Assembly (NCBI GenBank): GCA_947184155.2
Contig: CAMXCT020000434.1
Location: 62,001-126,000 of the forward strand
Reading direction: 5' to 3'
Length of the DNA: 64,000 bases
Origin: Cladocopium goreaui
Taxonomy: Eukaryota > Sar > Dinophyceae > Suessiales > Symbiodiniaceae
The notes under the pieces were generated by a model. It did no database searches and had not been told where the DNA came from. It saw only the letters and a program-made list of their open reading frames with translations. Positions 10,295 to 35,130 of this stretch are shown here, in pieces. Both the position numbers and the translations under genes were made by a program. The stretch's first letter is position 1; each line of letters begins with the position of its first letter.

Positions 10295-11997
10295 TTACGA
10301 AAGCCAGCTAGCTGGCTAGTTGCTGTTTGCGAACGAAGTGAGAATAGGGGGTGTGGGGGGGGGGTGGTTGCCGAAAGGGAACGAAATGCTCGCCGTGGAA
10401 CGAAATCTCGCCGTGCCCCTGTGTTGAGCGCGAGAAAACGGAGCATTTTGCTGGATTATGTACCACTAGGCAATTGGCTGACGGTGGGGTATCGATTCCC
10501 CCTAGGTCCGCCTTTTTGGTGGCCGGAGAGACCATGAGGATGTATTGGAAAATACAATGAAACTGCAGGAGAACATGATAACGATCAGAGGAAATCGTAC
10601 AAAATCCCCTGGAAAACGGACGAAAACGGAGCGAATGCTAGGAACAAACCATGGAAAATCCCTTGGAAAATGGAGGAAACCGGAGCGAATGCTAGGCGCA
10701 AACCATGACGATGCAGTAAACATGCTGGAAAAATACAGTGAAAGTGCAGGAAAATGTGATAACAACGAGAGGAAATGGTGCAAAAAGGATCGGAAAATGA
10801 AGGAGACAGGTAAAACTCTTGGATTAATATTAATATTGAAAAGGTATGAAAATGCAGGAAACCAGAGGAAATGGTGCAAAAACCTATGGAGGAAAGAGGT
10901 GAAAATGATAGGAAACATGTAGTAAAAAAATGCTGGACAAAACATATTGAAAACCCACGAAGAGGATGTATTGGAAAATACAATGAAACTTGAGGAAAAC
11001 ATGATAACGATCAGAGGAAAATGCTAGGAACAAACCATGCAAAATCTGTTGGAACATGGAGGAAACCGGAGTGACTGCTAGGAACAAACTATGACGATGC
11101 AGTAAACATGTTGGAAAAAGACAGTGAAAGTGCAGGAAAATGCGATAACAACCAGAGGAAATGGTGCAAAAACGATCGGAAAATGAAGGAGACGGGTAAA
11201 ACTCTTGGAAAAATACATTGAAAATGCAGCAAACCAGAGGAAATGGTGCAAAAAGGAGACGGGTAAAAATCTTGGAAAAATAGATTAAAAATGCATGAAT
11301 AGACTGAAAACCCACGAAGAGGATATAGAAACTGCAGGAAAACATGATAACAATCAGAGGAAATCGTGCAAAATCCACTGGAAAATGCTGGAAAGATACA
11401 GTGAAGGAAAATGTGATAACAACCTGGCAGGAAAATGTGATAACAACAAGAATAAAGGGTGCAAAATCTGTTGGAACATGGAGGAAACCGGAGCAACTGC
11501 TAGGAACAAACTATGACGATGCAGTAAACATGCTGGAAAAATACAGTGAAAGTGCAGGAAAATGCGATAACAACCAGAGGAAATGGTGCAAAAACGATCG
11601 GAAACTGAAGGAGACGGGTAAAACTCTTGGAAAAATATATTGAAAATGCATGAAATGCAGGAAACGAGAGGAAATGGTACAAAAAGCCATAGAGGAAAGC
11701 GGTGAAAATGGTAGGAAGCATGTAATAAAAAAAGCTGGACAAAACACAGTGAAAACCTACAAAAGAGAAGAAAGTAACCACAGGAAACGGTAGAAAAAGC
11801 AGTGGAAACTGGAAGAAAAGTTGTGACAATATTAGGAAAACGGTGTACAAGCTAGGAAATGCTTGTAACAACTAGAGGAAACGATGTAGAAAACAGTACA
11901 ACATGGAGGACACGCGTGAACATGCTAGGAGGCATGTAACATGTTAGAAAAATACAGTGAAAACCAAGGAAAATGTTATATCTAAAAATGCTTTAAA
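10295..11997 (+). repeat. Higher-order repeat copy A
   Basis: Begins TTACGAAAGCCAGCTAGCTG with a 16-bp palindrome, followed by a G-rich tract and then the purine-rich array. Recurs at 13351 with a period of 3,056 bp and only scattered differences and small indels. Confidence 0.8.
10302..10317. repeat. 16-bp perfect palindrome
   Basis: AGCCAGCTAGCTGGCT, at the head of higher-order copy A; repeated at 13358-13373. Confidence 0.95.
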
Positions 11998-12376: not shown

Positions 12377-13345
12377 GGATAAAACATATTGAAACCCCAC
12401 GAAGAGGATGTATTGGAAAATACAATGAAGCTTGAGGAAAACATGATAACGATCAGAGGAAAATGCTAGGAACAAACCATGCAAAATCTGTTGGAACATG
12501 GAGGAAACCGGAGTGACTGCTAGGAACAAACTATGATGATGCAGTAAACATGTTGGAAAAAGAGTGAAAGTGTAGGAAAATGCGATAACAACCAGAGGAA
12601 ATGGTGCAAAAACGATCGGAAAATGAAGGAGACGGGTAAAACTCTTGGAAAAATACATTGAAAATGCAGCAAACTAGAGGACATGGTGCAAAAAGGAGAC
12701 GGGTAATAATCTTGGAAAAATAGATTAAAAATGCATGAATAGACTGAAAACCCACGAAGAGGATATAGAAACTGCAGGAAAACATGATAACAATCAGAGG
12801 AAATCGTGCAAAATCCACTGGAAAATGCTGGAAAGATACAGTGAAGGAAAATGTGATAACAACCTGGCAGGAAAATGTGATAACAACCAGAATAAAGGGT
12901 GCAAAATCTGTTGGAACATGGAGGAAACCGGAGCAACTGCTAGGAACAAACTATGACGATGCAGTAAACATGCTGGAAAAATACAGTGAAAGTGCAGGAA
13001 AATGCGATAACAACCAGAGCAAATGGTGCAAAAACGATCGGAAACTGAAGGAGACGGGTAAAACTCTTGGAAACATATATTGAAAATGCATGAAATGCAG
13101 GGGACGAGAGGAAATGGTACAAAAAGCCATAGAGGAAAGCGGTGAAAATGGTAGGAAGCATGTAATAAAAAAAGCTGGACAAAACACAGTGAAAACCTAA
13201 CCACAGGAAACGGTAGAAAAAGCACAATATGAGGAAAACGGTGTACAAGCTAGGAAATGCTTGTAACAACTAGAGGAAACGATGTAGAAAACAGTACAAC
13301 ATGGAGGACACGCGTGAACATGCTAGGAGGCATGTAACATGTTAG
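12377..13345 (+). repeat. Partial higher-order copy B
   Basis: Matches the second half of copies A and C (from the block TTGGAAAATACAATGAA... onward) but lacks the palindrome and G-rich head. It joins copy C directly at GTTAGAAAAATTACG. Confidence 0.75.
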
Positions 13346-18881: not shown

Positions 18882-20218
18882 TCATACCGTATCTGTGGGC
18901 ATGACCATTCCAAATAGCAACCCCAAATTCTGGGGTTTGTAAAATCCACCTAAGAGTATCCTGAGCTGGCGGTTTAGCCTGGTACAGCTGCAATCACAGT
19001 AAGGTAACAAAATGGTTTGTTGCGTTTTTGTACTCAAACCTCCCAGTTGTTCTGTTCAATGGTTTAGCCTTGGCTAGAGCCGAGGAAAGTTTCCAAAACC
19101 CAGGGGCCCAGCAGGGTCAGATCTTGAAAACAAGAATCATGGGATGGTTACGACCGTTGGATTCTTCAGAATGCTTTGTTGCAAATGGCAGATGTTTTCA
19201 GCCTTGACCCTTTGGGCCCCAGAAGCAAACGACTAGAGGATTAGGTCTCTACTCTGCCAGATGCACGTTGCCATTTGCCAGATGTGCCTTAATATTGTCC
19301 TGTTTCGCTTGCACAGATGTCGAAAGCGTGGACAAGCTGTCAAGAAAAGAACGGGAAATGAACATCGCTAGTTTTAGACTGGGACAATCATCTACCATAA
19401 AGGCATAAAGGGGCCATTTTCTTTGCAGTCGTTTCCCATTGGATTTCATTGAAAGGGTAGTAGCATTTTTCTTTAGAAACACACGTTATAAACACCTGTC
19501 AATGTCAACTGCGGGCAGATGCGTCGCATTGCAAGCTCTTGCCTTCGAATAGTGACAGTCCTGCGATGCATTTCTTTTCTTTGAGCAGAAAAGATTGGAC
19601 TTTCAATAAATTGTGCCTGAGCATTCAGGAGGCTCCCTCAGTGGAATGTTCAGCACCTTTGCCTCATGTTCTGATTCGGGCCTTGAGCTCAGACTTGGAA
19701 GGAGGTGGTTTCAGAAAGGGGCATGGGGTGCATGGGTGCCAGCATAGATTTAGAGCCTAAGCAGAAAACAAGTACACCCAAAGAAACCGCAGTGCTTTTC
19801 CAGTGGTTTTGTTGCAATTGGAGCGTTCCAGGGTTTCACTCCAGGAATCCGAAAATGGTGGCATTTAGGCTTCAAGGGATTCTTTCACACCGACGCCTTG
19901 CTTCCTTGCCGTGATAGTTGATTCTGGGTCAAACCCTGGTGCCTGGTACCCTGGTGATAGCTTGCAGATGAATGATATGAATGCTCACCCCGCCAAATAT
20001 GATAATTTTTAGGGGCCCATTTTTGAAATGGCGGCCTTGCCTGCTGTCCGCCATGGCAGCAGTCTTCATTTTCCAAAGCGTGCAACGGCAGTTGGCAGCT
20101 CTCCACTGCCGTGTCCCAGCTGGACCCAACTAGGCCAGGTCTTTGGTGGGTCCATGAATTAATGTGGTGAGGCGATTGCCATCTTTGGACCATTCTATAC
20201 TATTATATACTATTATGT
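18882..20218. other. No gene seen
   Basis: Short frames only. None has a recognisable motif. Confidence 0.5.
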
Positions 20219-20335
20219 CATATTACATTATGCGATATGAGATGAGATGAGATGATATGATATGAGATGAGATGAGATGATAAGGTATGATATGATATGA
20301 TATGATATGATATGATTATATATATATATTATTGA
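20219..20335. repeat. ATGAT/ATGAG pentanucleotide repeat and TA tract
   Basis: Tandem GATAT/GAGAT pentamers followed by a short TA run. The copia element is inserted 6 bp further on. Confidence 0.9.
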
Positions 20336-20336
20336 A

Positions 20337-20341
20337 TTATA
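20337..20341. repeat. Target-site duplication, 5' copy
   Basis: TTATA, matching TTATA at 34490-34494 directly after the 3' LTR. Confidence 0.85.
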
Positions 20342-20460
20342 TGTTGTTGCACAGTCTTTACATATGTCCTAGCATTTCACCTCTCCTTACTGTGTGGCAA
20401 TGGCTCAAGAAATAGCGTTAGCGGATTGTGGTGTGTTGTGGTTGGTTATCTGTTTCTACA
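20342..20460 (+). repeat. 5' LTR
   Basis: 119 bp, TG..CA ends. It contains GGCAATGGCTCAAG (20396-20409), which resembles the 3' part of the dinoflagellate spliced leader, and an ATG (20400) in frame with gag. Confidence 0.95.
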
Positions 20461-20475
20461 GGTTATCAGCCGTAT
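20461..20475 (+). promoter_or_regulatory. Candidate primer-binding site
   Basis: GGTTATCAGCCG follows the 5' LTR directly. It loosely resembles the TGGTATCAGAGC primer site of many copia elements, which pairs with initiator tRNA-Met. The match is imperfect. Confidence 0.35.
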
Positions 20476-20543
20476 CGCCAAAGGTGATTTGGCTGGTTTC
20501 CTTTCGTCTCACACTTTTCGCTCGTTCCTCTCTGTGTTTAGCC

Positions 20544-23243
20544 ATGTCTTCTCCCCCTGCGTTGCCTGCCCCGGGCGGGAACGCCACGGCTGCACTAGCA
20601 TTGGCTAACACATCACAACCGGAGGAAGTGGTAATCCATTCAGGTGCGGCGACAACAGAAGGCGATATGAGTTACCTGGACGAGGACTTTGACCCATGCC
20701 GTTCTGATCCACGCAGGAATACGCCGGGTGTTTTGGACACCAACATTGACATTAGCCAGCTCAACACCATCAACTTCAATAGCATTGACCAACATACAGC
20801 ACATGTTGCAGTGGTACAGCAAGGTGTTGACCCTTCGATGGCAAATCAACTCATGGCTGCTCAACAGCAGGCATTGCAGAGCGAGGCTAATGCGCTTCAC
20901 TCTGAGGTCATGGAACATCAAAGGAATGCGCTTGTGAGTGAAGCTCGAGATCAACTTGCAAGCATTGAACAACAGGCAGCCGACGAGATTTCCAGGAAGA
21001 ACCTTTTGTTGAACGAGCAAGCCGCCCAGGCGATGAGTGAGCAGAAATCTGCTCAGCTGCAGATCAATGCGCAGGATCATCGCATCAGGGAACTGAGTGC
21101 CGAATTGACACACGTAGTCAACAATGCAGGTATCCTCACATCAACTGCGGAGAAGTCCAACGCTGATCTGCAGACAGCCCGTTCGGAACTTGCAGAGTAT
21201 CGCACTCAGATTGATGCAATGAATCAACATGCATTGAACATGCAGAAGTTGGCCGAGTCTCAAAAGAAGGACTTCGAGGCGGAGATTGAGAAGCTTCGGA
21301 AGGAGCAGAAGGAGCTCATTCGGAACTTAAAGTCTCAACCTCTGGAGGGAACTCCTGGACTCATGATTCACTATGGACCAGGAAAACCCGTTCCACAAGC
21401 TTCGCAACCCGCAAGTCCAATCATTGAAGAGTTGGCATCAGGTAGCAGGAAGCCCAAGCATTCTTCTGATGCAGATGATGAGCATTTCTTGGCAGACCCG
21501 TTGAAGCCGCCAGGACTTCCTGGTGGTGGACCTCCTGGAGATGATGACGATGATGATGATGACTTCGATGACAAAAGAGGTCACAAGGACAAGAAAGACA
21601 AGAAGAAAGGTCGCAAGACCAGCCGTGGAAGATCCAGGCGCCGACGTCGTCGGGATCCCTCGTCTTCTCCATCTTCGTCTTCATCGCCTACCACGTCCAG
21701 TTCGGATTCTGAGAGTTCTTTTGCACGAAAGGCCAAGAGGGCCTTAGAGCGTTCTAGGACTACTGATCATAAGGCCAAAGAGTCTGATAGGATCCTAGTT
21801 CCTAAGTTCCCTCAACCCGAAAATTATAGGAATTGGAGAATCCGAGTAAGGGATGCTATAATTGCTGCTTCAGCCAAACCTGACCTAGCTTTCCAATGGG
21901 TTGAAGAAGTTTTCAGGACAGATCAGTCTGTCGATGCCTTGAAGGACTCAGGTAAATTCGTGACCCTTGACGCAAAGCTCATGTCTTCGCTCACCAACAT
22001 CTGCGAAGGGGACTTTGCACGGCAACTTGACATCTTTAAAGAAGAACAAGCCAAGTCAGGGACACCAGCTAGGGGACGTCAAGCATTGCTCATGATTCAC
22101 AAACACTTTAGTACAAGTAGGAAGCATGGTGCAGTGTACGACATTGAGGACCTCATGGCTGTTACCTTAGTCAATGATGATCTCAGAGGTTTCATCACCC
22201 GATGGGACGCTGTGATCGCTGGAATGACTTCCGAGCCTGACATGATGTGGAAGCAAGCATACTTTCACAATGCCATCAAGACTTTCAAGCCTCTCTCTCA
22301 TGATCTGGCTGTGTACGATCGCACACCGGAGGGGGAACCCAACCGCTCTTATGAGTTTCTCATGAAGGCTGCAAGGGACTACCTTGAGAGGAGACGTCTT
22401 GAGAAGATGCGGCAGGCCACCAAGAAGTCAGTTTCAGGTAAAAGAGACGCTACGCCAGCGCCGACAAGACCGCCATCTGCGGGAAAGCCCACAGGCATTT
22501 GCTATGACTTCCAGGCTGGCAAGTGTACTAGGGGAAAGGATTGCCGATATAGACATGAAAAGTCAGACAAAGGAAAAGGCGGAGGTAAGAAAGGCAAATC
22601 CAGGTCCAAGTCAAGAGGCAACAGTCGGTCTTTGTCTCCAGGATCTAGGAACCAAGTGTGTAAGTTTTGGAAGGCAGGTAAGTGTCAGCGAGGTAATGAC
22701 TGTGCTTTCCAACACCCACCGAAACCTGCAGCTCCATCTACTAAAGATGACAAGCGTGGAAAGAGCCAGAAAAAGAAGAAGAACAAGAAGAAGGGCGATC
22801 GATCTAGATCGTCAAGTCGAGGTTCCAATTCCTCGAGGGGCTCTCAGAGTCTGAAAGACAAAGGGGGAAAACCATCTTCCTCTGGCTCAGCTGCAGTTTG
22901 CCTGATGCGCGCTCTGATGATGGTCGCAGTCGTCAACCCTTCGACCAGTACTCATCGCGTGCCGGAAGGCATCGCCTCTCCGCAGTTTTTCAACCAGCAT
23001 TTTGCCATGCCAGTTACACCCAATCGCACTGTTTCATTTGGGGGCAACGATGAAATCTTCGAAGTTCCCATTGAGCAAAATTGTAATTTGCACCCGTGCC
23101 AAGCCAAGCAACGAACTTTCAATCCAGTTCGCATCACCAAGGACGATCGTACTCGTAAAGATACGATCGAAGCAAGAGAAAGTGATGCCATACTTGCAGC
23201 ACAGATGTTGCAATCAGCTGTCTTTCGGGAGTTACATGGGTAA
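20544..23243 (+). CDS. gag: Copia gag with two CCCH zinc fingers
   Basis: The frame is open from inside the LTR (ATG at 20400), but the protein-like sequence starts at the ATG at 20544 (MSSPPALPAPGG). In order: a long Q/E/A-rich coiled coil (about residues 60-265); an acidic run of eight D; a basic RS/R-rich stretch; a conserved gag core beginning ILVPKFPQPENYRNWRIRV (about residue 415); and two fingers, CYDFQAGKCTRGKDCRYRH and CKFWKAGKCQRGNDCAFQH, both C-x7-C-x5-C-x3-H. Copia gags usually carry a CCHC knuckle, so CCCH fingers are a lineage trait. The ORF ends at TAA 23241, overlapping the protease frame, which is offset by +1. Four members of the hairpin family lie inside this gene. Confidence 0.9.
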   Translation: MSSPPALPAPGGNATAALALANTSQPEEVVIHSGAATTEGDMSYLDEDFDPCRSDPRRNTPGVLDTNIDISQLNTINFNSIDQHTAHVAVVQQGVDPSMANQLMAAQQQALQSEANALHSEVMEHQRNALVSEARDQLASIEQQAADEISRKNLLLNEQAAQAMSEQKSAQLQINAQDHRIRELSAELTHVVNNAGILTSTAEKSNADLQTARSELAEYRTQIDAMNQHALNMQKLAESQKKDFEAEIEKLRKEQKELIRNLKSQPLEGTPGLMIHYGPGKPVPQASQPASPIIEELASGSRKPKHSSDADDEHFLADPLKPPGLPGGGPPGDDDDDDDDFDDKRGHKDKKDKKKGRKTSRGRSRRRRRRDPSSSPSSSSSPTTSSSDSESSFARKAKRALERSRTTDHKAKESDRILVPKFPQPENYRNWRIRVRDAIIAASAKPDLAFQWVEEVFRTDQSVDALKDSGKFVTLDAKLMSSLTNICEGDFARQLDIFKEEQAKSGTPARGRQALLMIHKHFSTSRKHGAVYDIEDLMAVTLVNDDLRGFITRWDAVIAGMTSEPDMMWKQAYFHNAIKTFKPLSHDLAVYDRTPEGEPNRSYEFLMKAARDYLERRRLEKMRQATKKSVSGKRDATPAPTRPPSAGKPTGICYDFQAGKCTRGKDCRYRHEKSDKGKGGGKKGKSRSKSRGNSRSLSPGSRNQVCKFWKAGKCQRGNDCAFQHPPKPAAPSTKDDKRGKSQKKKKNKKKGDRSRSSSRGSNSSRGSQSLKDKGGKPSSSGSAAVCLMRALMMVAVVNPSTSTHRVPEGIASPQFFNQHFAMPVTPNRTVSFGGNDEIFEVPIEQNCNLHPCQAKQRTFNPVRITKDDRTRKDTIEARESDAILAAQMLQSAVFRELHG

Positions 23244-24119
23244 GCCTTGCAAATGCAGCTTTGAATGTGACAGTGATATCGGCTGTCGCCACTGCATCCG
23301 TTCCGATTTGAATGCATTGCCAGGACACATGCCATCTCAGCAGCGTAATGCATCCGCCGAGATAGCATGGATTGCAGACACTGGTAGTGCACAGGACTTA
23401 GTTTGTAGTAAAATGATTCCCGAAGAAGTTGTGTATCACTCTCCTGAACCCCTTGAGTTAATCACTGCAAATGGTTCTCAATCAGCTGATCAACAAGCTT
23501 CTGTTCATATTGATTGCATCGACAAAGAAGTTCATCCTTATGTTCTTCCTGATACCCCGGCTGTAATATCGGTAGGGATGAGATGTATTCAAGATGGATG
23601 GGGCTTTGTTTGGAAAAGCTTTAGTCGCCCATATTTCAAGAAGAAAGATGGAACAAAGATCAAACTTGAAGTTAAGGATTTCGTTCCTTATTTACCATCC
23701 AGAGATGGCCAGGTACCCGCTGCAGTAGGGATTCCATTTTCATGGGACTCCGCTGCCGGGAACGGCAAGCCCATCATCTCACCTGTTCGAAGGTCTCGCA
23801 TGTCAGCCGTTGGTGCAGAGTCCGATGATGAAGTCGAGGAGGTCGAAGAACCTTATGAGGCTTCCATCGCTGACGACGATGAGATTCCCGGACAAGCCAT
23901 CGACGACCTCGAGGAATTCTTTCCTGGTGAACTTGCACCAGGACCTCCAGCAGCCATGACGCCCGACGTTGTTGAAGGTTCGGAAGATGAAGCCGAAGCT
24001 CCTGAAGAACCAGTTGACGGTCGACTTCAGTTGCCTGAACCCAAGGCGATTGATCGTGGTGAAGCTGCACTTCGAGAAGAGGCCAGGACCCTTAGGCACA
24101 TGATGACACACACACCCCA
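23242..24119 (+). CDS. pol: Copia protease and start of integrase
   Basis: This is the +1 frame relative to gag and is open from 23002. Protein-like sequence around the switch (KPCKCSFECDSDIGC) leads into IAWIADTGSAQDLVC, the D-T-G active site of a retroviral-type aspartic protease (GAC at 23377). It then runs through an acidic linker to LRHMMTH, the two histidines of the integrase HHCC finger. The two cysteines of that finger (CETC) follow in another frame. The missing base lies in or near a CA/CCCC tract at 24106-24121. A +1 shift at the gag end could be programmed, as in Ty1, but no classic shift site is evident. Confidence 0.8.
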
Positions 24120-26220
24120 AAGAACCCCTTTTGTGAAACATGCAAATGTGCAAAGATGTACAAACCAACCAAACGTAGTAAAGGGGAGTCTTTGACTGTG
24201 GAATCCAACAAGTTCGGGGACCACATCACTGGGGATCACCTTGTGACTAGGGATGCCAACGAACAATCTATTGATGGTGACAGGGTTGCTATGGTCATGA
24301 AAGATGTCGCTACGAATTTTCGTTGGATTTATCCTTCAGCTAGAAGTCATGCCAAGGATTGTGTTTTAGCTTTTAGACATTTCGTTGCACCTGGTGAAGA
24401 AGTCGGAGTGTTTTACTCCCATGCAGCACCATCCATCAAGCTCGCTTGTCGGGAAGTTGGGTGGAGACAGAACACTAGTGTTGCGTATGTCTCTAAGTCG
24501 AACGCAGTCGCCGAGAGGAATCTCAGGTCCGTACTTGAAGGAACTAGAGTAAACCTAGAACAGGCAGGGCTTCATCACTCCTATTGGAGTTACGCTGCAC
24601 GACATTGGTGTATGGCACACAACATCCAGGACCACCCTGAAATCTTATCTCCTTGGGAGCTTCGTTTTGGGGAAAAGTTCAAGGGACCCAACGTTCCTTT
24701 TGGGGCTCGCATTGATTATTGGACTGGACCGAAATTAAAACCCAAGAAAGACTTACGTTTTGATCCAACTTCGAACCCAGGCGTCTTTTTGGGATATGCC
24801 ATGCAACCAGGTTTCGTTTGGAGAAATGAATTTCTTGTAGCATCATTGAAGGACCTCATGGAAAAAGAATTCAACGAATCTGTTCAAGTTGTCCGCGTCA
24901 ACCAACTCACGGTACCAGATGGACCATTTGTTTTCCCTTTGAAAGGTAGATACAAGGCCATTAGGGAAGGTTTATATGAGTCTCTTAGCCTTGATGCTCC
25001 ACCAGATCCAAAGAAGATGGACGCTCAAACAATTGAAGACTTGGTTTCTCCAAGGAAAGCTGTTGAGCCAGGACCGGTGGAGGGCGAAGAGGAATTTGAA
25101 CAGTTGATGCGTGAAGCTGGACTTGAATCGGATGACATCGAAGTTATTGACCCCAAAACTGGAAAGTCAGAATTTATCTCTAAGGATGACCCTTCATACT
25201 ACGATTCTAGTGGTTTTAAGGGAAGACGATACAAAGGTTCCTCCAAACCAAAAGACATCCCAACATTTCTTTGGCGGGGGGCCTCCAAAGCGGCTAGAGA
25301 AAGGGCCAAGCGTGAAGCCTTGTTGAAAGAGGCAGCTGAGAAGCATGATGCAGCAGTTGCCAAAGAACGTAAGTACAATAGGGTTATAGATCGTTTTGCC
25401 ACTTCAGCTGTCCAAGAACCCAAGAATGCCGATCATCCAGACGAGTTCATCCCCGCAATGCCAGTCATCTGTAATCCGGGCTCGCATGGTGGAAACCATT
25501 GCCATCGAGACAACCTTAAGGATCAATCAGAGCTCATGTGCTTTCATTTTTCCAATGCGCTCGTGGCCAGACCCGTTGGACAGAAGGAGATCAACAACAC
25601 TCCTGCTGCCCAAGCTGCACCCGATAAGGAATGGAATAACCTTACTAGTAAGGGTGCATGGGATTATTCCACTGTTAGGGAATGGGATGATGTTTCAAGG
25701 GAAGCCATCAAGAACAAAACCAAAGTTCATGTAGGCAAGATCTTTGAGATTTGTGTCGAGAAGGGAAGTGAGCTACCGCAGGGTGACCCCATGCGCAAGT
25801 TTAAGGGTCGCACAGTTTTTCAAGGAAACAACGTAAAGGACGAAGCGGCTGATGTTGCTTTGTTCGCGGAGCTCGGAAGTTCACCGGCCAACATGGAGGC
25901 AGGAAAAGCGTTGGATGCTTATGGCTCCATGCCGGGGAACCGGACATCACAAGGTGATGGTAAGCAAGCTTACACCCAAGCATTGATGCAAGGAATTTTA
26001 ACTTGGATTAGATTACCAAGAAATCGTTGGCCAAAAGAATGGATGGGTGTGTGCAAAGATCCGGTTGTACTTCTTATTTTGGCATTGTATGGTCACCCCG
26101 ATTCGGGGGGTCTATGGCAACGTCATTGTGAGAAAGCCTTGTATGCAGCCGGATTTCACCCACTCTACCCCGAATGTTGGCCTTCAATGTTTTGGCATCC
26201 GAAGTTGAAGTTGTTACTTT
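24120..26220 (+). CDS. pol: Copia integrase core and first part of RT
   Basis: Starts in frame with KNPFCETCKCAKMYKPTKRS, completing the integrase finger. The catalytic core has D1 in ITGDHLVTRD (GAT 24234) and E in SNAVAERNLRS (GAG 24513). The middle position, normally Asp before a small residue in FYSD, is His here (FYSHAAPS, CAT 24420). The integrase C-terminal region runs to FVFPLKGRYKA, followed by an acidic linker. RT begins near 25625 (WNNLTSKGAWDYSTVREWDD) and includes GDGKQAYTQA with the first catalytic Asp. An extra T in a TTT run at 26218-26220 shifts the frame just before YVDD. Confidence 0.85.
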
Positions 26221-28566
26221 GGTGTATACGTGGATGACTTCAAGATGTCAGGACCTTCCAAGAACATTGATGAAGGGTGGAAACTTATCGCTTCTCAAAT
26301 CGACATGGATACTCCTGAAGATGCTGGAAGATACCTTGGATGTGAACATGTGTTCAAACAGAACGTCAAACTAGATGTAAGTGCTCATCCATTTGCTCAT
26401 GTCTTTGATGCCAGCATTCCGGATCCTTCTAGTAAGCCAGCCAGTCCGGCCCGTCGAACAAAGGACTACTGGGAGCATATGCCAGAGCTTGGAGTTCATG
26501 TTCATCATCACCTGCAACCTCGTAAGAAGTTCCAGGACAAGCCGAAGGACGATATGTCTTTCCGGGCGGGAACGCGCCGGCTAACAGTGTGTGAACCTTG
26601 CCAAACCCAAGATGAACCCAAAGAATATGTTCATGATATGGAATCTCAAAACCCAACTGGACTTCCATTTTGGTGGACGGGATCAACCTACTTCGTGGAC
26701 AAGTCAATCCAAGAACCCTCAAAAGTTTTGGCAGCGGCTAAGAAGATAAGAGACAAATCGGGAGCAAAGAAAGCGGCTAGGGCACAGGGATTTACTTTTC
26801 TTGATGAACTTGAGCAACAAAAATCCAAGTGCATGACAAAGAATGTCAACACGGTCGAATATGACATGCGACAATTCTTGCAACAATGTATTGACCACTA
26901 CGTTGAGCTAGCAGGACCAAATGTGAAGTTCAAGAAAGTTTCAACTCCTTTCCCAGATGACAAAATTGCACGTCCGATCATGGACGAAGCAGAAGCTCGG
27001 GGGGAACTCCAGCCTATAGCATCACGTGTGTTGATGAAGGTGTTGTTCGCAGCACGAATGGCTAGGTTTGATCTTCTCCGTGCTACTCAGGGTTTAGCGA
27101 GTAGGGTTACAAAGTGGTCACCGGATTGCGACAAGAGTCTTCATCGATTAATGTGTTACATACACTCAACCCTTGATCGTACAATGGTTGGCTTCGTTGG
27201 GGATCCACCTGAGGCTTGCAAGACATGGTTGTTTGCAGATTCAGATCATGCTGGGGAACATGATAACCGTTCAACAAGTGGTTGCCTTCTCGCTTTAGTA
27301 GGACCAAACACGTTTTATCCACTCACAGCTTTTTCAAAGAAGCAGACTTCAACGGCTATGTCATCGACAGAGGCTGAAGTCACTGCGGCGAACCTTGCTT
27401 TACGTGCTGTCGGTTTACCTTCCTCCTGCCTGTGGTCAGTCATACGTCACGCGGGGGGAGATAGCACTCAACAAAGGCCGTTCCGCAGAGTGGAAACTCC
27501 TGCCAAACCCCCAAAAACACAAAAGATGACTATTGGGAGCACGTTCCTTTCACCAACCAAGTTACCAGAGTTCATGTCAAACCCCGGAATAAACTGTATA
27601 ACCCAATTGATTCAGGGATTGGCTAGACAAAGGTACACCATCATGAAAACCAAAACTGGTGATGTTGAATTTGATTTGACATGGGACTGGACGACTCCTG
27701 ATGCTGACGTGGTCAATGATTTTGAATGGACTGGGAAAACTATCTTCAGGATTCCTGGACCAAATGAAGTTGACTACGGGGTTGAGTCACGGGAGATTAG
27801 ATCAGCTTTAACTGATTTCAAGTATGTTGGATCTGAAAAGCGGGGGGATGAAAGTGTGTACATGGCAGGACCCCGTAGTCTTGAGGTCATTTTCCTTGAG
27901 GACAACCAAGCAACCATTCGGATTCTTGAGAGTGGAAGGTCACCGTCATTTAGGCACACTGACAAAACCCAGAGATTGAACTTGTCATGGTTGTCTGAAC
28001 AGTTCAAACGAAAACATTTCAAACTTGTCTATGTTGGTTCATCGCTTCAAGCGGCAGACATCCTCACCAAGCCTTTTACCAACTCCGAGAAGTGGGAATC
28101 AGCTCTGCGATTAATGGGTATTTCATCACAGCCCCTTCAATGGAAGGAGCAACAGAAGATGAAAGCCTGCGCAGGGGAACCTGCACCTTCAACAGTGTCG
28201 GGATCTCAGCAACGCGCAGGGGAACCTGCTTGCCCTTCAGTGGCATCTCATAGCAGGGTACTCATTAAATTTTGTTGTGGACCTGATTCAAAGCTTGGTG
28301 ATCGGTCGCGAAAACATTCAAAAGATTGTTATGTCATCAGATGTACGGAAGAAAGAGATGTTACATCTAGATCGAATAGAATGGACATCAGAAACGAAGT
28401 TGTACAAGCTATTGAGAGTTCAGTTGTTCAACCTTGTCCTGTTTTGATTTGGATCAGCATTCCTTGCACTGGTGGCGCAACATGGTCATATGTGAACTTG
28501 CAACATGAATCAGCCAAACTCAAAGTTGAATATCATCGACATGTTTTTGAGAAGATATGGTCATGA
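26221..28566 (+). CDS. pol: Copia RT end, RNase H and start of a methyltransferase-like domain
   Basis: Opens with VYVDDFKMSG, the RT active site (GAT GAC at 26233-26238). Thumb and linker follow. RNase H reads WLFADSDHAGEHDNRSTSG, SSTEAEVTAANLALR, FLEDNQATIRIL and AADILTKPF, so all four acidic residues are present. After about 28140 come two AGEPA segments that correspond to hairpins, then a class-I methyltransferase-like region: a glycine-containing loop (LIKFCCGPDSKLGDRSRKHS) and ISIPCTGGATWS, resembling the PC motif of cytosine-C5 methylases. The frame stops at TGA 28564-28566 inside that domain and resumes in the same frame at 28567. Confidence 0.85.
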   Translation, partial: GVYVDDFKMSGPSKNIDEGWKLIASQIDMDTPEDAGRYLGCEHVFKQNVKLDVSAHPFAHVFDASIPDPSSKPASPARRTKDYWEHMPELGVHVHHHLQPRKKFQDKPKDDMSFRAGTRRLTVCEPCQTQDEPKEYVHDMESQNPTGLPFWWTGSTYFVDKSIQEPSKVLAAAKKIRDKSGAKKAARAQGFTFLDELEQQKSKCMTKNVNTVEYDMRQFLQQCIDHYVELAGPNVKFKKVSTPFPDDKIARPIMDEAEARGELQPIASRVLMKVLFAARMARFDLLRATQGLASRVTKWSPDCDKSLHRLMCYIHSTLDRTMVGFVGDPPEACKTWLFADSDHAGEHDNRSTSGCLLALVGPNTFYPLTAFSKKQTSTAMSSTEAEVTAANLALRAVGLPSSCLWSVIRHAGGDSTQQRPFRRVETPAKPPKTQKMTIGSTFLSPTKLPEFMSNPGINCITQLIQGLARQRYTIMKTKTGDVEFDLTWDWTTPDADVVNDFEWTGKTIFRIPGPNEVDYGVESREIRSALTDFKYVGSEKRGDESVYMAGPRSLEVIFLEDNQATIRILESGRSPSFRHTDKTQRLNLSWLSEQFKRKHFKLVYVGSSLQAADILTKPFTNSEKWESALRLMGISSQPLQWKEQQKMKACAGEPAPSTVSGSQQRAGEPACPSVASHSRVLIKFCCGPDSKLGDRSRKHSKDCYVIRCTEERDVTSRSNRMDIRNEVVQAIESSVVQPCPVLIWISIPCTGGATWSYVNLQHESAKLKVEYHRHVFEKIWS

Positions 28567-31160
28567 ATGGTCGATTTTCTTAATCTTATTCGTCATTTAA
28601 GTCCAAAGATTGCGATTGAATGGCCAGCCCATTGCATTTATTGGAAGTTTGACCGAGTTGAGAAATTTTGTGCAAAACGTCAACTCATCAGAGTCGCATT
28701 TGATGGATGCATGGTTGGTATTGTCAACAAAGAAGGTGAACCTATTAAGAAACCATGGGCTATTCAAACTGATTGTGATTCAATTGTCACTGCTTTTGAT
28801 GGATTGTCATGTGATGGTAGTCATAACCATGTTCAAGGAAGAGGTCATGACTTGAAGGAAACTGAATCATATTCTTTTCAGATGACGGACATGATCCATC
28901 AAGCTTTCATTGCAGCGACCAGCTCAAAACTCAAACTGACGACTTCTACTGCATTCTGCGCTGTTTCGCTTTCTACATCATCTACAATGGCCTACTACCG
29001 ACGATTTCCACAAGCCGAGGTTGAAGAGGCAGACTACGCCGCTGCTGCGGATGCTGCTGGAATTCGACCCGGGGAACCGGAGTCCACTGCTGAAGATGTG
29101 ACTTTGGGGCCTAATGGAAAGGCGTGGTATGCATTGACTGGGAGCATTTTCAGCTCTGTCACTCAGTGTCGTGTCGTGAACGAAGCCGATGTCATTTCGG
29201 ATCTTACTTCACTCATGGGCCGAACTGACCATTCGCTGTTGGCCAAGGGCTACCTTCGTGACGTGAGCCCGGAAGACGCGAAGCTCCTCGACGGCGTTTC
29301 AAGCTTCTCACTCAGAGGCATGATGTGCCCAGGGGAACCTGAGGCCAATTTCATTTTTGCCGGAGATTCTTCGATGGCACTTGTGGACATGGTCGACGGG
29401 TACGCTTCTACGCGCAGGAACATCGGCGAGTACATCAAGGAGAAGCCGGACCTCCTCCCACCAGGCCGCAGAACGGTCTGGCACGATCTCAAATGGGGTC
29501 GTGGGCTGCCTGACATCATCAAGGGCGTCGAGCACTCTCTTGAATGTTTGCAGCGGAGGGGAACCTCTCGCCCAGCTATCATTGTCATCTCTTACGCTGG
29601 CAACGATATTTTTGGGAACTACGGCTTTATCCACTGTGATTGGCTCAATCAGGAGATGGCGTGTTACTCACAGAAGCGCCGGGACGCAGCAAACGATCTC
29701 ATGGAGGAAAGGGTCAATACCCATTTCTCCGCCCTCAACGACCTCGTGAAGCTGACAACCCGTGCCGACGTTGGGAACATCGTCCTCGTGATGCCATGGT
29801 ATGGTCGAGGTTATGGGCTTCATCCTGACTTTGACCGGCAGATGATCCGCGAGGCTGAAACACTCAGAAAGCGTGGGCTTTGTGTGCTTGATGCCACGTC
29901 GTTGATCAAATGCACGACGCGATATGACAAACAACACATGGAAAACTCCGAGCACAACCGCCTCCAGTGCATTCGATTCTACTCGGAAGCAGGCGCTTTG
30001 GGATATCATCTCTTCCGACTTCGGTCGTGCAAGCCATTGATTGAAATGGCGGAGATGAAGAAGCGCCGTGAGGAATCGCTGGCCGCCCCGCTTCCGGAAC
30101 CCAATCCGGAGTGGGAAGAAATGGAGGAGGTGCTTGTCTCCATGGACGTGGACGGTTGGGAAATCTATGTGAAGGAGACCCGACCCAAGGGGCAACGACT
30201 TCCCAATGAAGTCGATCCTGAACGTGCACAGCTACAACAAGCTCCTGTGGTGCAGGATGATGCGGCCGTGGCCTCATCGAACTGGCAGCTTTTGGAGTCC
30301 GTGGATGTTGCACTGCCGGGGGAACCCGAGCACTTTGAACCACATGAGGTCAAAGAGCCGGAGATGGATGGTGAGCTCATTGACGCCATCCTCAAGCCCT
30401 TTTTGGATCGGTTGCCAGGTGTGTCGGACGAGCGTGACATCGACGAGCCGGACGATGACGAGGAAATTGTCTTCAAGGACCCCATTGTCGGCGGCTCGGC
30501 GTCGTTGCTCGGCCAGCGGAAGCTGCGCTCCCATCTGATGAACAAGATCCACGCTGTGGACTTCAAGTTGGATGGCTCTGGCGTAGTGAACATCTTGGAC
30601 ACCGACGTCACACGTGATCCTGCCAAACTCGAACTTCGGCAGGAGTCCATGCAGCAGACGGAGGAAGGTGCAGTCATCATTCGTCGCTTTGACTTGACGG
30701 ATGAGGAAAAGCATCGTCAGATGGAACGTGAAATCTTTGAGGAGCCCAAGTCCGCCGAGGAGAAACTTCGCGCGGGTGACCCCGCTGCCTCTCTGCAAAT
30801 TGTGTCGAAAGCCAAATCGAAGGCGGCTCCCAAATCGGAAGCGGCATCGTCATCGAGCGGCATCGCACAGGTGATTGGAGATGCAGTCGGCCAGTTCATC
30901 AAGCCGAAGACGAAGGACCAGAGCACGATGGCTTCGTACAAACGTGCTCCTCAGCTCCCCAAGATTTCAACGGCGACGGGAACGTCTCCCATGGCGTCCC
31001 CAAAGCCAAGTCCGCCACCAACTCCGAAGAGTGCAATCGGGTCCCCCAAACCGGATCCACCTGCACTCCCAGCGGAAGCTGCGGACCAACCTATGCCCAA
31101 GGCATTGCCTTCCACCACCGACGTTGACAACAACCTCACCAAGGGCACCTCCTCAGAAGT
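28567..31160 (+). CDS. Methyltransferase-like C-terminal half fused to an SGNH/GDSL-like hydrolase domain
   Basis: Same frame as the preceding ORF, separated only by TGA. Residues 1-130 finish the methyltransferase-like region (KIAIEWPAHCIYW, GEPIKKPWAIQTD). A second ATG at 28987 starts MAYYRRFPQAEVEEADY. Residues about 255-480 look like an SGNH fold: block I FIFAGDSSMALV (Ser of GDS at about residue 267), a central IIVISYAGNDIFGNYG (block III G-x-N-D at about residue 345), and a late EHNRL that could supply the catalytic His. The rest is acidic and P/S/K-rich linker. The reading moves to the +1 frame near 31160. SGNH esterase domains occur in ORF1 of some LINE elements; in a copia element this is unexpected. 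Confidence 0.65.
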
Positions 31161-32214
31161 CATCGGCACCAGCCGCTGCGCCTTCGACGGAGCCTGCCCC
31201 GAAGATTGCCAAGAAGGAGCCGCCTATGGCAAGTGCTCCTCCCCCGGGAATGGGTGGACCTCAGCCTCCAACTGAACCACCTTTGCGACCATCGGGATAC
31301 CCCAAATGGTACTTTTTCTCCCCGGGAACGGGCGAGCGCAGGGAGTTCACCGTCAGGTGCACTGAACTGCCTGGCCTTCGAGATCTTGGACATCTTAGCT
31401 ACGACGACTTCAAGTTTTCCAAGCGGGTCACTGGATTGTTGCGCGGCTACGACCACAAGTTTTTGGAACCCCATCATCGTCACATTCCACCGGAATTCGA
31501 TGACGAGCTCTACCTCAACTTCGAGAGCATGTACAGCTACTTGAAGAAGAGGTACAGGGCCCAGCTCTCAAAGGAGGATCTCTATCTGATCCTCAGGACG
31601 CAGGACAGGTTCATGTGTCGCATTGAAGCTGGAATTGTCGGGGAACTGACAACTTTGGACATGCCGTACCGCATCACGCATGTGAAAGCCTGCCAAGGTC
31701 ACGACCAATCCCTCATCGACAAGGTGGGGACGGCTCCATTGGTCAAGCAGATCATCTCGCTTGACTACCAGTTCACGGTGGAGGATTTGAAAAGGGGATT
31801 CTACCCAAGGGTTCCTATTTATCCTCACCTGGCGGAAGCCGAGGTCCCAGAAGAGTTCCGTGTAATTTACCATTACACGTCATGGAACGCCCTTCAGCAG
31901 ATCATTTGCACGGGAATTTTCCCCGGGGCTTCGTCTTGCAAGGGTCATGTTTACATGACCCGACATGCGCCTTGGGAAATTTGAAGGCAAGGATCCTGGT
32001 GTCAGGACGAACAGACCCGTGTGCATTGCAATTGACACCGATTGCGCTTTGCACTATGGTCTTCGCCTGGTGGAAACCTTGGCCGGTGCCCTCATCTGCG
32101 AGGACTGGATCCCGAACCATTGCCTCATCTACGCATTCGATTGCGAGAAGTCGCAATACCTTTGGGCCAACCACGGCTACAACGGGGTCAAGAAGTACCT
32201 TCGGCAGAAGGCCT
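31161..32214 (+). CDS. Tpt1/KptA-like RNA 2'-phosphotransferase domain
   Basis: Reads in frame from about 31161 (APAAAPSTEPAPKIAKKEPP) to 31984, then in the next frame to 32222. The KptA features appear in order: FKFSKRVTGLLRG (compare SKxLSxxLRH); a helical winged segment ending YLILRTQDRFMCRIE; YRITHVKACQGHDQ (the A-x-Q-G-H-S motif); EFRVIYHYTSWNALQQIICT (the YHGT motif); KGHVYMT (the H-V-H-L motif); then RPVCIAIDTDC. This family transfers a splice-junction 2'-phosphate to NAD+ in tRNA splicing, and its fold is an ADP-ribosyltransferase. The leading Arg-His dyad reads R-G here, so activity is uncertain. One-base slips occur near 31977 (GGGAAATTT) and 32214 (CTTGAAAGG). Confidence 0.7.
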
Positions 32215-33507
32215 CCGCTTGAAAGGTATGAGTGTTCGGACTTGGAGACGTTGAAGGTGCTCTTCACGAATGAATATGATCAGTGGAAGGACGTGGTTAC
32301 TTTGCGCCGTCCACTCATCTACAAAGAAGTTCCAACACCTTACCCTGTCGTCGACGAACTGCTGCCGAAGACCAGGCAGCGACCGCTCAACTTCACCAAC
32401 CTTCTCTGTGTGGCGCGAAAACCAACTGTGACGGCTGCTGCCTTCGACATTGCCCCTGACAACACGCGGGAACGCCGTTCTGATCGCTTCGATCAGGAGG
32501 CCTTTGACCCATCCGCGGAGGGGAACCTCACGCGCTGGCGGTATGTATCCATGCTGGCTATGCCAGAATTGACATGCCCCCGGTGCAGGAAAATTTTTCC
32601 TGAGGGGATGTTGGTATGCCTTGCATGCGGCTTGTCCTTGGCGACTATGTCCGACATGCGCCGTGCATGCCAGGTCTTTCGACTTGAGGAGCTGGCCGAG
32701 AAACTTGGTTTTGAATTGACCCTCGACTTGCTGGGCGATGACGATGTAGCAGGCACCACACAAGGTGCCAAGCAGATCCGCTCTGCTGCTGCTGTCCTCA
32801 AAAATCATGCCCGCTCATACATGAAGCAGGCACGAAAAGCGGGGATGACATTGCTCCAGCGTCTGGGAACGGACGCCCACTACGCCTTTAACTGTGCGGT
32901 CCAAGACCTGACGCCGAGGTGTATGCATTGGATTACCGTCCTCGGCAACGTCCTGCTCCCGAGCATCAAGCGCACGCGGGAGGAAATCCGAACTGGAAAG
33001 GTTCGGCAGTACAAAGCGCGTATGTGCATGGTCGCATACGAAGGTGGACAGATGCAGACGATCGTCGTTGACGATCATGTTCTCATCTGGTACAAAAACC
33101 GCTTTTACAGAGCCAACCAGTTCGCCGCCGCCTATGCCTTGATCCCCGTGGCCGACAGATTCGAGGTCTTGAGCATCGCCAACACGACGTTCCAATCCCT
33201 TGCGTTGTCCAAGCAGGATGTGTATGCCGACATTCTCAGCTATGTCGACGACATCTTGCGCCCCCTCACGGAGGCAAAGGACACGGAAGGCGGAAGCCGA
33301 CCCCTGCCTGCTACCAAACAGCAGAATCCAGATGTCACCAGGTCTTCGCGTTCTGGGTATGGATCACATCAGGGACCCACGCATGGCTACAGTCAACAGG
33401 AATGGAACGATTTCTACAACCAGTGGACTGACCAGGAGTGGGAAGATTGGCGCCGTCGAAACCAAGGCCACCAATACAGGGATCGACGTTGGTCGGGCTA
33501 TTGCTGA
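32215..33507 (+). CDS. Zinc-ribbon protein at the end of the copia polyprotein
   Basis: Protein-like sequence begins at ERYECSDLETLKVLF (about 32223), although the frame is open from 31882. It contains CPRCRKIFPEGMLVCLACGL, a C-x2-C...C-x2-C zinc ribbon (about 32575-32634), a helical region (SAAAVLKNHARSYMKQARKA), a small beta-rich part (VDDHVLIWYKNRFYRANQF), and a C-terminal tail rich in W, Q, D, R and Y (QWTDQEWEDWRRRNQ). The tail looks like a low-complexity RNA-binding or assembly segment. Family not recognised. It ends in TGA at 33505-33507; the next hairpin begins 7 bases later. Confidence 0.6.
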   Translation, partial: PLERYECSDLETLKVLFTNEYDQWKDVVTLRRPLIYKEVPTPYPVVDELLPKTRQRPLNFTNLLCVARKPTVTAAAFDIAPDNTRERRSDRFDQEAFDPSAEGNLTRWRYVSMLAMPELTCPRCRKIFPEGMLVCLACGLSLATMSDMRRACQVFRLEELAEKLGFELTLDLLGDDDVAGTTQGAKQIRSAAAVLKNHARSYMKQARKAGMTLLQRLGTDAHYAFNCAVQDLTPRCMHWITVLGNVLLPSIKRTREEIRTGKVRQYKARMCMVAYEGGQMQTIVVDDHVLIWYKNRFYRANQFAAAYALIPVADRFEVLSIANTTFQSLALSKQDVYADILSYVDDILRPLTEAKDTEGGSRPLPATKQQNPDVTRSSRSGYGSHQGPTHGYSQQEWNDFYNQWTDQEWEDWRRRNQGHQYRDRRWSGYC

Positions 33508-33513
33508 GACACC

Positions 33514-33532
33514 GCGGAGGGGAACCTCTCGC
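33514..33532 (+). repeat. GGAA hairpin in the 3' tail
   Basis: GCGGAGGGGAACCTCTCGC: GCG-GAGG pairs with CCTC-CGC, bulge T. Confidence 0.85.
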
Positions 33533-33587
33533 CTGGTGAATTCCTTTTTCAACTGAGGCGGGATAGTTTTTCTCTATGTGAAGTGTC

Positions 33588-33606
33588 GCACAGCGGAAGC
33601 TGTTGC
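33588..33606 (+). repeat. GGAA hairpin in the 3' tail
   Basis: GCACAGCGGAAGCTGTTGC: GCA-CAGC pairs with GCTG-TGC, bulge T. Confidence 0.85.
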
Positions 33607-33841
33607 CTACTCTGATTTAATTCGGGTAGGCGATTAGCTTCATTTGCACTGGTGGGTGCGCGATTCCACCAACACCCAAACAGGTGTGTGCTAAGTAGGA
33701 ATTTTTGCCAACTCATTTCAAGTTCACAAAAACTCCCATTAACGCTTTGAATGCATATAATTTGAAGCAGGCATTTGGCACTCATTTCATTCTTGCCATG
33801 ATTCCTTCTTGCTGAGCACACGGCTGGTAGTTGCATGTACC

Positions 33842-33860
33842 GCAGAGCGGAAGCTCTTGC
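33842..33860 (+). repeat. GGAA hairpin in the 3' tail
   Basis: GCAGAGCGGAAGCTCTTGC: GCA-GAGC pairs with GCTC-TGC, bulge T. Confidence 0.85.
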
Positions 33861-33997
33861 CTTGCGAAGTTAAGGCATCTTTGAAGCATTTCTGAAAGCT
33901 TCCCTGCGGGTTCACACCAAAACTGAATTCAGCATTTTGCTATAATTCATATCGCTTTGCTTTGGCAAGCTCCCGGGCGTCCACAAGAACTTTTGAT

Positions 33998-34016
33998 GCC
34001 GCGTGGAAACGCAGGC
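33998..34016 (+). repeat. GGAA hairpin in the 3' tail
   Basis: GCCGCGTGGAAACGCAGGC: GCC-GCGT pairs with ACGC-GGC, bulge A. Confidence 0.85.
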
Positions 34017-34364
34017 CTATGTAACGGGCCAAGTCCTTTTTCCACTGTGCATGTTCGATCGCAAGCCTGGTAGAGCCTAAAACTTGAAGCCGAATGCATT
34101 CGACCGAATTGATGTTCCTTGCATCCGTTGATCGCAGCACTTGATGTCGGGTCAAATGAAATGCATTGTCACTTTTTGCTCTTGTTGTCAACTTTCACGC
34201 CACACTGAGGTGAAGACGCAAAAGACATCAAAAGGTTAGGCGACGGTCGGGTTTGGGTTTGTTGTTTTTTTGTTTCCCTAATTTGGTTAATGTAACGGCA
34301 TCCCTTACTAGACTGTACATAGTTAATTTGCAGCTTCACTTCCTGTGCGGTAATTACACTGCAC

Positions 34365-34370
34365 GGGGGG
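34365..34370 (+). promoter_or_regulatory. Polypurine tract
   Basis: GGGGGG directly before the 3' LTR, where the plus-strand primer is expected. It is short for a polypurine tract. Confidence 0.5.
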
Positions 34371-34489
34371 TGTTGTTGCACAGTCTTTACATATGTCTTA
34401 GCATTTCACCTCTCCTTACTGTGTGGCAATGGCTCAAGAAATAGCGTTAGCGGATTGTGGTGTGTTGTGGTTGGTTATCTGTTTCTACA
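34371..34489 (+). repeat. 3' LTR
   Basis: 119 bp, 118 identical to the 5' LTR. A frame opening at 34423 reads from the LTR into flanking DNA and is not a gene. Confidence 0.95.
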
Positions 34490-34494
34490 TTATA
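34490..34494. repeat. Target-site duplication, 3' copy
   Basis: TTATA, matching 20337-20341. Confidence 0.85.
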
Positions 34495-35130
34495 TATACT
34501 ATAGAATGTAAGGCTATACATACACTATTGTTGTTTTTGTCCCTCAAGCCTGGAGCACCATTTTTTTCGCCTTGCTTTGCTTCCCCTGAAATGCGGTGGT
34601 TCTGCTTTGCCATCATCCCCTTCATCCCCTTGTATTCCCTGCTCCAGGCAGATGCACTCTGTTGGCCAGCGCCGTTGCGATTCGTTGCCGCGGCCGCACA
34701 GTGGCAAGGACAGGAGTTTAAAACGAGCTCTTTCTGGATCCAGTGTTGGTTGATGGTTTTGTGGTTTGGACATGTTGGGGCACAAGGGTATTGATTCTTG
34801 CAAACTGTTGGAATTCCTACCACGGGACTACTGGCAGCCAGACACAACAGTCACAGCACTTCTGCCACGTGAGTCATGAGGAAAGAAATTGCTTGCAGGA
34901 CTGCCGCAAAGACTAAGGCTGCGACAGTCGAGCCAAAGGGTGTATCGGTCTGGGGCCCTGGGTTTTTTCCAATCATCTCGAAGAAGGGAAAGAAGCACAG
35001 GAATCCCTTCCGTTCATATTAAGTAAACATCCCATCATTTAGGGGGTGTCCAATATTAGAGGGATGGGATTACTTTGATCCTTGCAGCGCTGCAATTTGA
35101 GACTGGCGTCCTAAGGCCGAAACAGCGCTG
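34495..35130. other. No gene seen; upstream region of the dynamin gene
   Basis: No coding frame is supported. Promoter or trans-splice acceptor elements of the dynamin gene should lie here, but none can be singled out. Confidence 0.5.

Follow-up and report, generated by a model that had tools for sequence, protein, structure and literature searches.

A dispersed array of conserved hairpins in a large dinoflagellate copia retrotransposon, a candidate RNA recognition code

The internal region of a 14.1-kb Ty1/copia-type long terminal repeat (LTR) retrotransposon from the dinoflagellate Cladocopium goreaui carries many small hairpins of one shape, most with differing stems but all with a GGAA loop. 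The element occupies 20342..34489 on the + strand of a 64,000-nucleotide stretch of contig CAMXCT020000434.1 (positions 62,001 to 126,000; hereafter the window, meaning this whole stretch), and we refer to its family as family A. That the hairpins are a real feature and under strong selection is, in our judgment, nearly certain. As for what they do, the best explanation, which we hold with moderate confidence, is that they may form a dispersed RNA recognition code that is read by an element-encoded protein for RNA selection or packaging.

In its strict form the hairpin consists of three pairs, four pairs and a GGAA loop, with a single unpaired base on the 3′ side between the two blocks of pairs (N3N4-GGAA-N4′-b-N3′). 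An exact scan of both strands of the whole window found this pattern 18 times, the very number given in an initial annotation of this DNA, with all copies on the + strand and within 20571..34016, that is, from the start of gag to the 3′ tail. There was none on the minus strand and none in the remaining ~50 kb, so that the array stands up, as far as the window goes, to the comparison with other DNA that the annotation had proposed. A relaxed scan for a GGAA loop with at least six of the seven pairs added 12 near copies within the same interval; the annotation was right that such copies exist, although it had put their number at about nine. The proposed comparison with dinucleotide-shuffled controls also leaves the array intact, since 300 shuffles gave a mean of 0.01 strict hairpins and a maximum of 1, against 18 observed. 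When the codons of the coding stretches were instead permuted synonymously (300 permutations), the mean was 0.10 and the maximum 2, against 13 observed.

Both the loop and the geometry stand out within the element. If G-U pairs and other bulge positions are allowed, 28 of the 125 GGAA tetramers in the internal region are enclosed by seven-pair stems with at most one 3′-side bulge; the second-ranking sense tetraloop in the same count, TGAC, reaches 4 of 74. Among 25 geometries around GGAA, the arrangement of four and three pairs with one 3′ bulge is the commonest, with 18 cases, and the runner-up, a plain 5-bp stem, has 6. In family A the base 3′ of the motif is C at 17 of 18 strict sites, a count that agrees with the earlier one, and the base 5′ of it is C at 14 of 18. 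The hairpins occupy all three reading frames and are thus not a protein motif. Three further GGAA hairpins in the window (about 10540-10547, 10966-10973 and 12408-12415) belong to one duplicated AT-rich stretch, a non-element repeat that is unrelated to the array. No similar array was seen in the remainder of the window, nor in the 3 kb covered of family F, a more distantly related copia family, which is a sample too small for a conclusion.

The strict hairpins begin near the gag start (20571..20589) and continue at 21082..21100, 22957..22975, 23752..23770, 25484..25502, 25929..25947, 27485..27503, 29066..29084, 29327..29345, 29553..29571, 30314..30332, 31067..31085, 31318..31336 and 32515..32533. 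The last four, at 33514..33532 (3′ of the last stop codon), 33588..33606, 33842..33860 and 33998..34016, carry the array into 3′ noncoding RNA. Alignment to the related family B, described below, places the hairpin at 25929 within conserved codons of the reverse transcriptase region, without an insertion. The bulge had been described as never G in strict copies, a statement that fails at 21082 of the window copy; in ten other copies of family A, G also occupies the bulge at 27485 in all ten (it is C in the window) and at 25484 in one. Among the near and variant hairpins, all on the + strand, those found in the relaxed scan at 21341..21359 and 24510..24528 have one G-U pair each, the latter on conserved codons without an insertion when aligned to B. 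A variant scan found others at 26562..26580 (seven pairs, bulge after 3 bp), 31827..31845 (bulge after 3 bp) and 32988..33006 (seven pairs, bulge after 2 bp). Three that are near copies in the window, at 30065..30083, 30511..30529 and 31240..31258, are strict in all ten of the other copies, with seven Watson-Crick pairs at the first. Finally, a variant with a 2-nt bulge (28214..28233) is likewise intact in all ten; it is the second of two GGAA hairpins that are spaced 45 nt apart (28169-28233) and both code for the repeated peptide AGEPA.

Copies of the element were sought in the 1.17-Gb genome, where at least 27 contigs, the window contig included, contain all three landmark hairpins. Conservation was measured in ten other family A copies (L009/L010 to L027/L028), which are 91-99% mutually identical, all lie on the + strand of their contigs and were compared piece by piece. 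Sites 29553, 32515 and 33514, which had served to locate the copies, were excluded from the conservation counts, the poor match at 22242 was counted as background, and codons in overlapping frames were excluded from the codon-position counts. Because the copies are related, the counts that follow are not independent events. Third codon positions vary at 4 of 114 positions in hairpins and at 1250 of 3836 elsewhere (Fisher p 3e-14), and in the 3′ noncoding part 0 of 54 positions vary in hairpins compared with 259 of 748 outside; random block sets never reached this degree of conservation (0 of 2000). At strict sites the mean pairwise difference is 0.006 in stems and 0.003 in loops, compared with 0.058 for the remainder of the element, and at near sites it is 0.007 in stems and 0 in loops. 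Stem conservation in other copies of the element, the third comparison that had been proposed, is therefore strong, and so is that of the loops. The flanking bases are held as well, with the base before variable at 0 of 15 strict sites and the base after at 1 of 14. Variation of the bulge is close to background at strict sites (4 of 15) and absent at near sites (0 of 11), so that free variation of the bulge is at most suggested.

Family B gave a similar picture. In nine of its copies, none of 70 stem positions and none of 20 loop positions varies at five sites, and variable third positions number 0 of 28 in hairpins (stem and loop) versus 373 of 1948 elsewhere. In both families, then, hairpin stems and loops are constrained beyond protein coding, and in A they are under strong purifying selection.

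Related families of the same genome carry hairpins on the same plan with loops of their own. A cross-family scan used three definitions, GGAA, GCRA and hexaloop, which gave counts, in that order, of 25, 0 and 0 in family A; 7, 1 and 0 in B; 2, 0 and 0 in C; 0, 14 and 6 in D; 0, 0 and 10 in E; none of the three types in the 3 kb examined of F; and 3, 0 and 0 in the window outside the element. Over the main pol blocks, family B (L030-L040) shares 48-55% identity with A. Its hairpins are on the sense strand (7 in 19.9 kb under the common definition, with 0 antisense), they are preceded by A or T and followed by C at 11 of 12 listed sites, and their bulge comes after three or four pairs, is absent or, at two sites, is on the 5′ side. 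Family C (L029), which shares 67% identity with B, has two fitting hairpins, which lie on B's codons with the bulge shifted; at the listed C sites, too, the base before is A or T.

Family D (L041, L043 and L044) has no GGAA array. Tallies of all loops brought out a GCRA loop (GCAA or GCGA) at 14 hairpins, with 0 antisense. Its sister, family E (L045, L047 and L048; 58% identical in pol), has ten hairpins with six-base loops, 9 of which fit NYAANN, with G before and C after at 10 of 10 and with 0 antisense. Shuffle means for D and E, each under its own definition, were 0.08 (100 shuffles). The definition for E is post hoc, since it was seen only after D and E had been aligned and loop lengths 4-8 tried, and the same 17.5 kb served for the later checks of flanks and shuffles; with no rule set on the flanks it gives 10 sense and 3 antisense hairpins, with a shuffle mean of 0.99 and a maximum of 4. 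Six D sites fit this definition also, because the innermost pair of D can be read as part of the loop. Family E had at first been taken as a negative control, without a GGAA or GCRA array or any enriched loop (lengths 3-7, seven Watson-Crick pairs), a role it lost when the hexaloop was found. The loops are thus specific to families: GGAA in A, B and C, GCRA in D and a hexaloop near NYAANN in E.

At a few homologous sites, alignment of the families shows that pairing is retained through compensatory changes. The hairpin at 29327 of A and that at L032:4898 of B occupy the same codons, the two inner pairs being G-C in A and C-G in B. At 28214 of A, L032:3749 of B and L029:3755 of C, the shared codons are GGG GAA CC and the stems differ yet pair. 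Between D and E, one pair has changed on both sides at L043:4463 and L047:3628, and a one-sided change has turned T-G in D into C-G in E at L041:4203 and L045:4862; at both sites, again on the same codons, the partner bears the loop type of the partner family. The initial annotation had read strong covariation from the array itself. While its observation that the stems differ and stay paired holds, differences between sites within one element are not strict covariation, and the compensatory changes were found separately, at these homologous sites.

What might such an array do? That the element RNA bears a repeated binding site, as had been suggested, is the best-supported reading, since the many copies are on one strand, of strict shape and with family-typical loops and flanks, and the structure is kept independently of the protein. 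The array also has several of the features expected of dispersed packaging signals, namely a motif shared across the genomic RNA, occurrence above chance on the sense strand only (shuffle means 0.01-0.10) and constraint beyond coding. We propose that, across a clade of large copia elements, the hairpins would act in cis as a recognition element present in many dispersed copies on the genomic RNA. The features recognized would be the short stem (mostly with G-C and C-G as its two outer pairs), the single 3′-side bulge, the family-specific loop and the C that follows. With many sites on each RNA, an element could then capture its own transcript into virus-like particles with high avidity and family specificity, and capture could also, or alternatively, serve export and protection of the transcript.

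We infer the protein reader, its identity as Gag and packaging as the purpose from these features together. An element protein present in many copies would be a natural reader, and Gag is the first candidate, most likely through two CCCH zinc fingers (22500..22715, + strand, detected with Pfam CCCH models at residues 710 and 763 of the frame starting at 20373). Two CCCH fingers are present in all four families whose gag was examined (A, B, D and E), and the solved structures nearest to them are muscleblind-type. Fingers of the muscleblind type bind RNA. Packaging is the most likely purpose since the selection of genomic RNA in LTR elements is a task of Gag and scattered sites are suspected for Ty1 and Ty3, according to excerpts of a published account (PMC4974528). 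A more specific proposal, which we offer tentatively, as possible rather than probable, is that the 7 to 28 hairpins per element genome form a family-specific RNA address code in this giant copia clade, with loop, bulge position and flanking base switching together across nearly all sites as families diverge. Each Gag would then capture only its own RNA, and cross-packaging within one nucleus would be avoided.

Several observations weigh against a recognition code read by Gag. In predicted folding the mean pair probability of the hairpins falls from 0.81 with flanks of ±10 nt to 0.57 at ±30 and 0.19 at ±100; as long-context folding is weak, the hairpins may form only with the help of the protein or where ribosomes unfold the RNA locally. 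In D, a C follows the stem at only 9 of 14 sites. Few sites are shared, with 2 of 8 mapped B sites common to A and 2 of 9 mapped D sites common to E, which suggests that single positions are replaceable. Since the fingers of D and E are similar and their loops differ, the CCCH fingers alone may not set specificity. In addition, a 3′ part that the families share, with a Tpt1-like domain and a zinc ribbon, is an equally possible reader.

This 3′ part leads to a first alternative, in which another domain of the element (the Tpt1/KptA-like domain, the zinc ribbon, or a methyltransferase- or SGNH-like region) binds the hairpins so as to process, repair or modify RNA rather than to package it. The 3′ part of family B has a Tpt1/KptA-like RNA 2′-phosphotransferase domain (L040:889-1572) that exceeds the Pfam cut-off (PF01885, 28.7 bits versus 26), with zinc-ribbon and zinc-knuckle motifs downstream, and BLASTP finds a homologous 3′ part in A (around 31300-31980), D and E. 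As an RNA enzyme, such a passenger would require RNA substrates. Nothing in the data ties the Tpt1-like domain to the hairpins, however, about 28 sites per RNA suit a stoichiometric binder better than an enzyme, and Tpt1 acts on 2′-phosphates, not on GNRA loops. We consider this alternative unlikely. We are similarly doubtful that a host RNA-binding protein reads the hairpins and is exploited by the element for nuclear export, stability, localization or translation. Although coverage of both coding and 3′ noncoding RNA is what would be expected of a transcript-wide tag, sister families in one genome differ in their loops, GCRA in D and the hexaloop in E, which fits element-specific readers better. 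It is less probable still that complementarity serves reverse transcription, as pause or strand-transfer sites, rather than recognition by a protein: the hairpins are dispersed over the whole internal RNA and their stems are conserved, but a generic pause site needs no invariant loop, one-sided bulge or preferred 3′ C.

How the sites arose bears on the remaining alternative. Comparison of A with B shows that 9 of 14 alignable coding sites are free of gaps in the hairpin and lie on protein columns common to both, for example in the well conserved codons at 24510 and 25929, and the gaps at the other five are unequal in length. Between D and E, 7 of 9 sites are gap-free, and at the two with gaps D is once four codons longer and once two shorter. 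Since most alignable sites are gap-free on shared columns, the hairpins were made mostly by substitution within existing coding sequence; the sites come and go as the plan persists. Mobile hairpin insertions of the byp and double-hairpin types are known, and many copies of one architecture within one element might recall them, but the gap-free sites, the mostly differing stems, the use of all three frames and the lack of a strict copy elsewhere in the window make a tiny self-spreading hairpin, the other suggestion of the initial annotation, highly improbable.

The carrier element is bounded by 119-nt terminal direct repeats (5′ LTR, 20342..20460; 3′ LTR, 34371..34489; both + strand) that are 99% identical and have TG..CA ends, and it is flanked by a 5-bp target duplication, TTATA. 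Its primer-like site is of the GGTTATCAG type, with the sequence GGTTATCAGCCG in family A. Internally, Gag with its two CCCH fingers is followed by a copia-type pol and a long 3′ part. Although a Pfam search gave no RVT_2 match for A itself, its pol aligns to those of B and C at 45-61% identity over the main pol blocks. RVT_2 was found in C (1.3e-6) and B (8.8e-4), both under the curated 31.6 bits, and precomputed PF07727 is present on several homologues of A; by these homologous families the element is of Ty1/copia type. One pol relative bears the name Symbiodinium. The reading frames of the window copy are broken into several, whereas the longest open frame among the copies listed from this genome runs to 4,422 codons. 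A Tpt1/KptA-like enzyme is unusual cargo for an LTR retrotransposon. Between RNase H and the Tpt1-like part (~28300-29900), we also noted by eye a methyltransferase-like stretch with an IPCTGG motif and an SGNH-hydrolase-like stretch, neither with a Pfam match.

Wider searches added little. Rfam covariance models gave no match above gathering score in window positions 20000-35000; matches to the snoRNAs sR41 and sR45 at 23821-23875 (21 bits, against gathering scores of 54 and 40) are at chance level and not at a hairpin. One exact hairpin pattern searched in viral contigs, and query P0012 searched against GTDB and viral contigs, found no relative. Across the genome, the pattern GCN5GGAAN6GCC matched 10714 times and a version one base shorter, which excludes the bulge, 7619 times, with 2956 and 3548 matches for the reversed controls; these counts are uninformative, since pairing was not enforced and one bacterial-looking contig (C1) alone gives about the same ratio. 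This contig, over 5.4 Mb in length, looks bacterial by its length and by its evenly spread pattern matches (the first 100 span 3.8 Mb and 5.4 Mb), and possibly comes from a culture associate.

In the open-access literature, covered chiefly as titles and abstracts among the matches listed, we found no precedent for a dispersed hairpin array in copia or dinoflagellate elements. The SL3 stem-loop of the HIV packaging signal psi resembles the hairpins described here in having a short purine tetraloop, GGAG, and a zinc-finger reader, which in our case is a candidate; it differs in being present in few copies near the 5′ end and in being read by CCHC knuckles rather than CCCH fingers. Closer parallels come from RNA packaging in viruses, for which we rely, as for the retrotransposons below, on excerpts of the papers cited. 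In RNA viruses, packaging signals scattered over the genome have been proposed, and that of MS2 has the motif (x)xYA in the loop and an A in a 5′ bulge (PMC6281560), while those of the hepatitis B pregenome have RGAG loops (PMC7612645). As in the copia array, many stem-loops of the genomic RNA share a short loop motif. The array is stricter in stem length, bulge side, loop and usual 3′ base, it is conserved relative to synonymous sites, it resides in an LTR retrotransposon, and its loop differs between sister families. Contact with coat protein has been reported for the viral signals, whereas the copia hairpins are known here from sequence alone.

Among dinoflagellate retroelements, the retrotransposons of Symbiodinium that bear a DNA methyltransferase (DNMT) domain, where the copia superfamily lacks that domain, resemble family A in having captured enzyme domains, and the word hairpin does not occur in the main text (PMC5890265). 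Ty1 and Ty3 are, like family A, LTR retrotransposons, in which Gag mediates selection of the element's own RNA. Their packaging sites are not clearly defined and scattered sites are thought likely; a repeated hairpin array, such as the copia families have, is not mentioned in the excerpts, according to which it is an open question even in these elements how Gag chooses its own RNA (PMC4974528). Ty1 Gag has similar affinity for different RNAs and shows a preference only in competition, with a link to a pseudoknot (PMC8396678). In the copia system the sites are numerous, crisp and measurably selected, and several versions of the loop occur within one genome, which should make the coevolution of reader and site directly testable.

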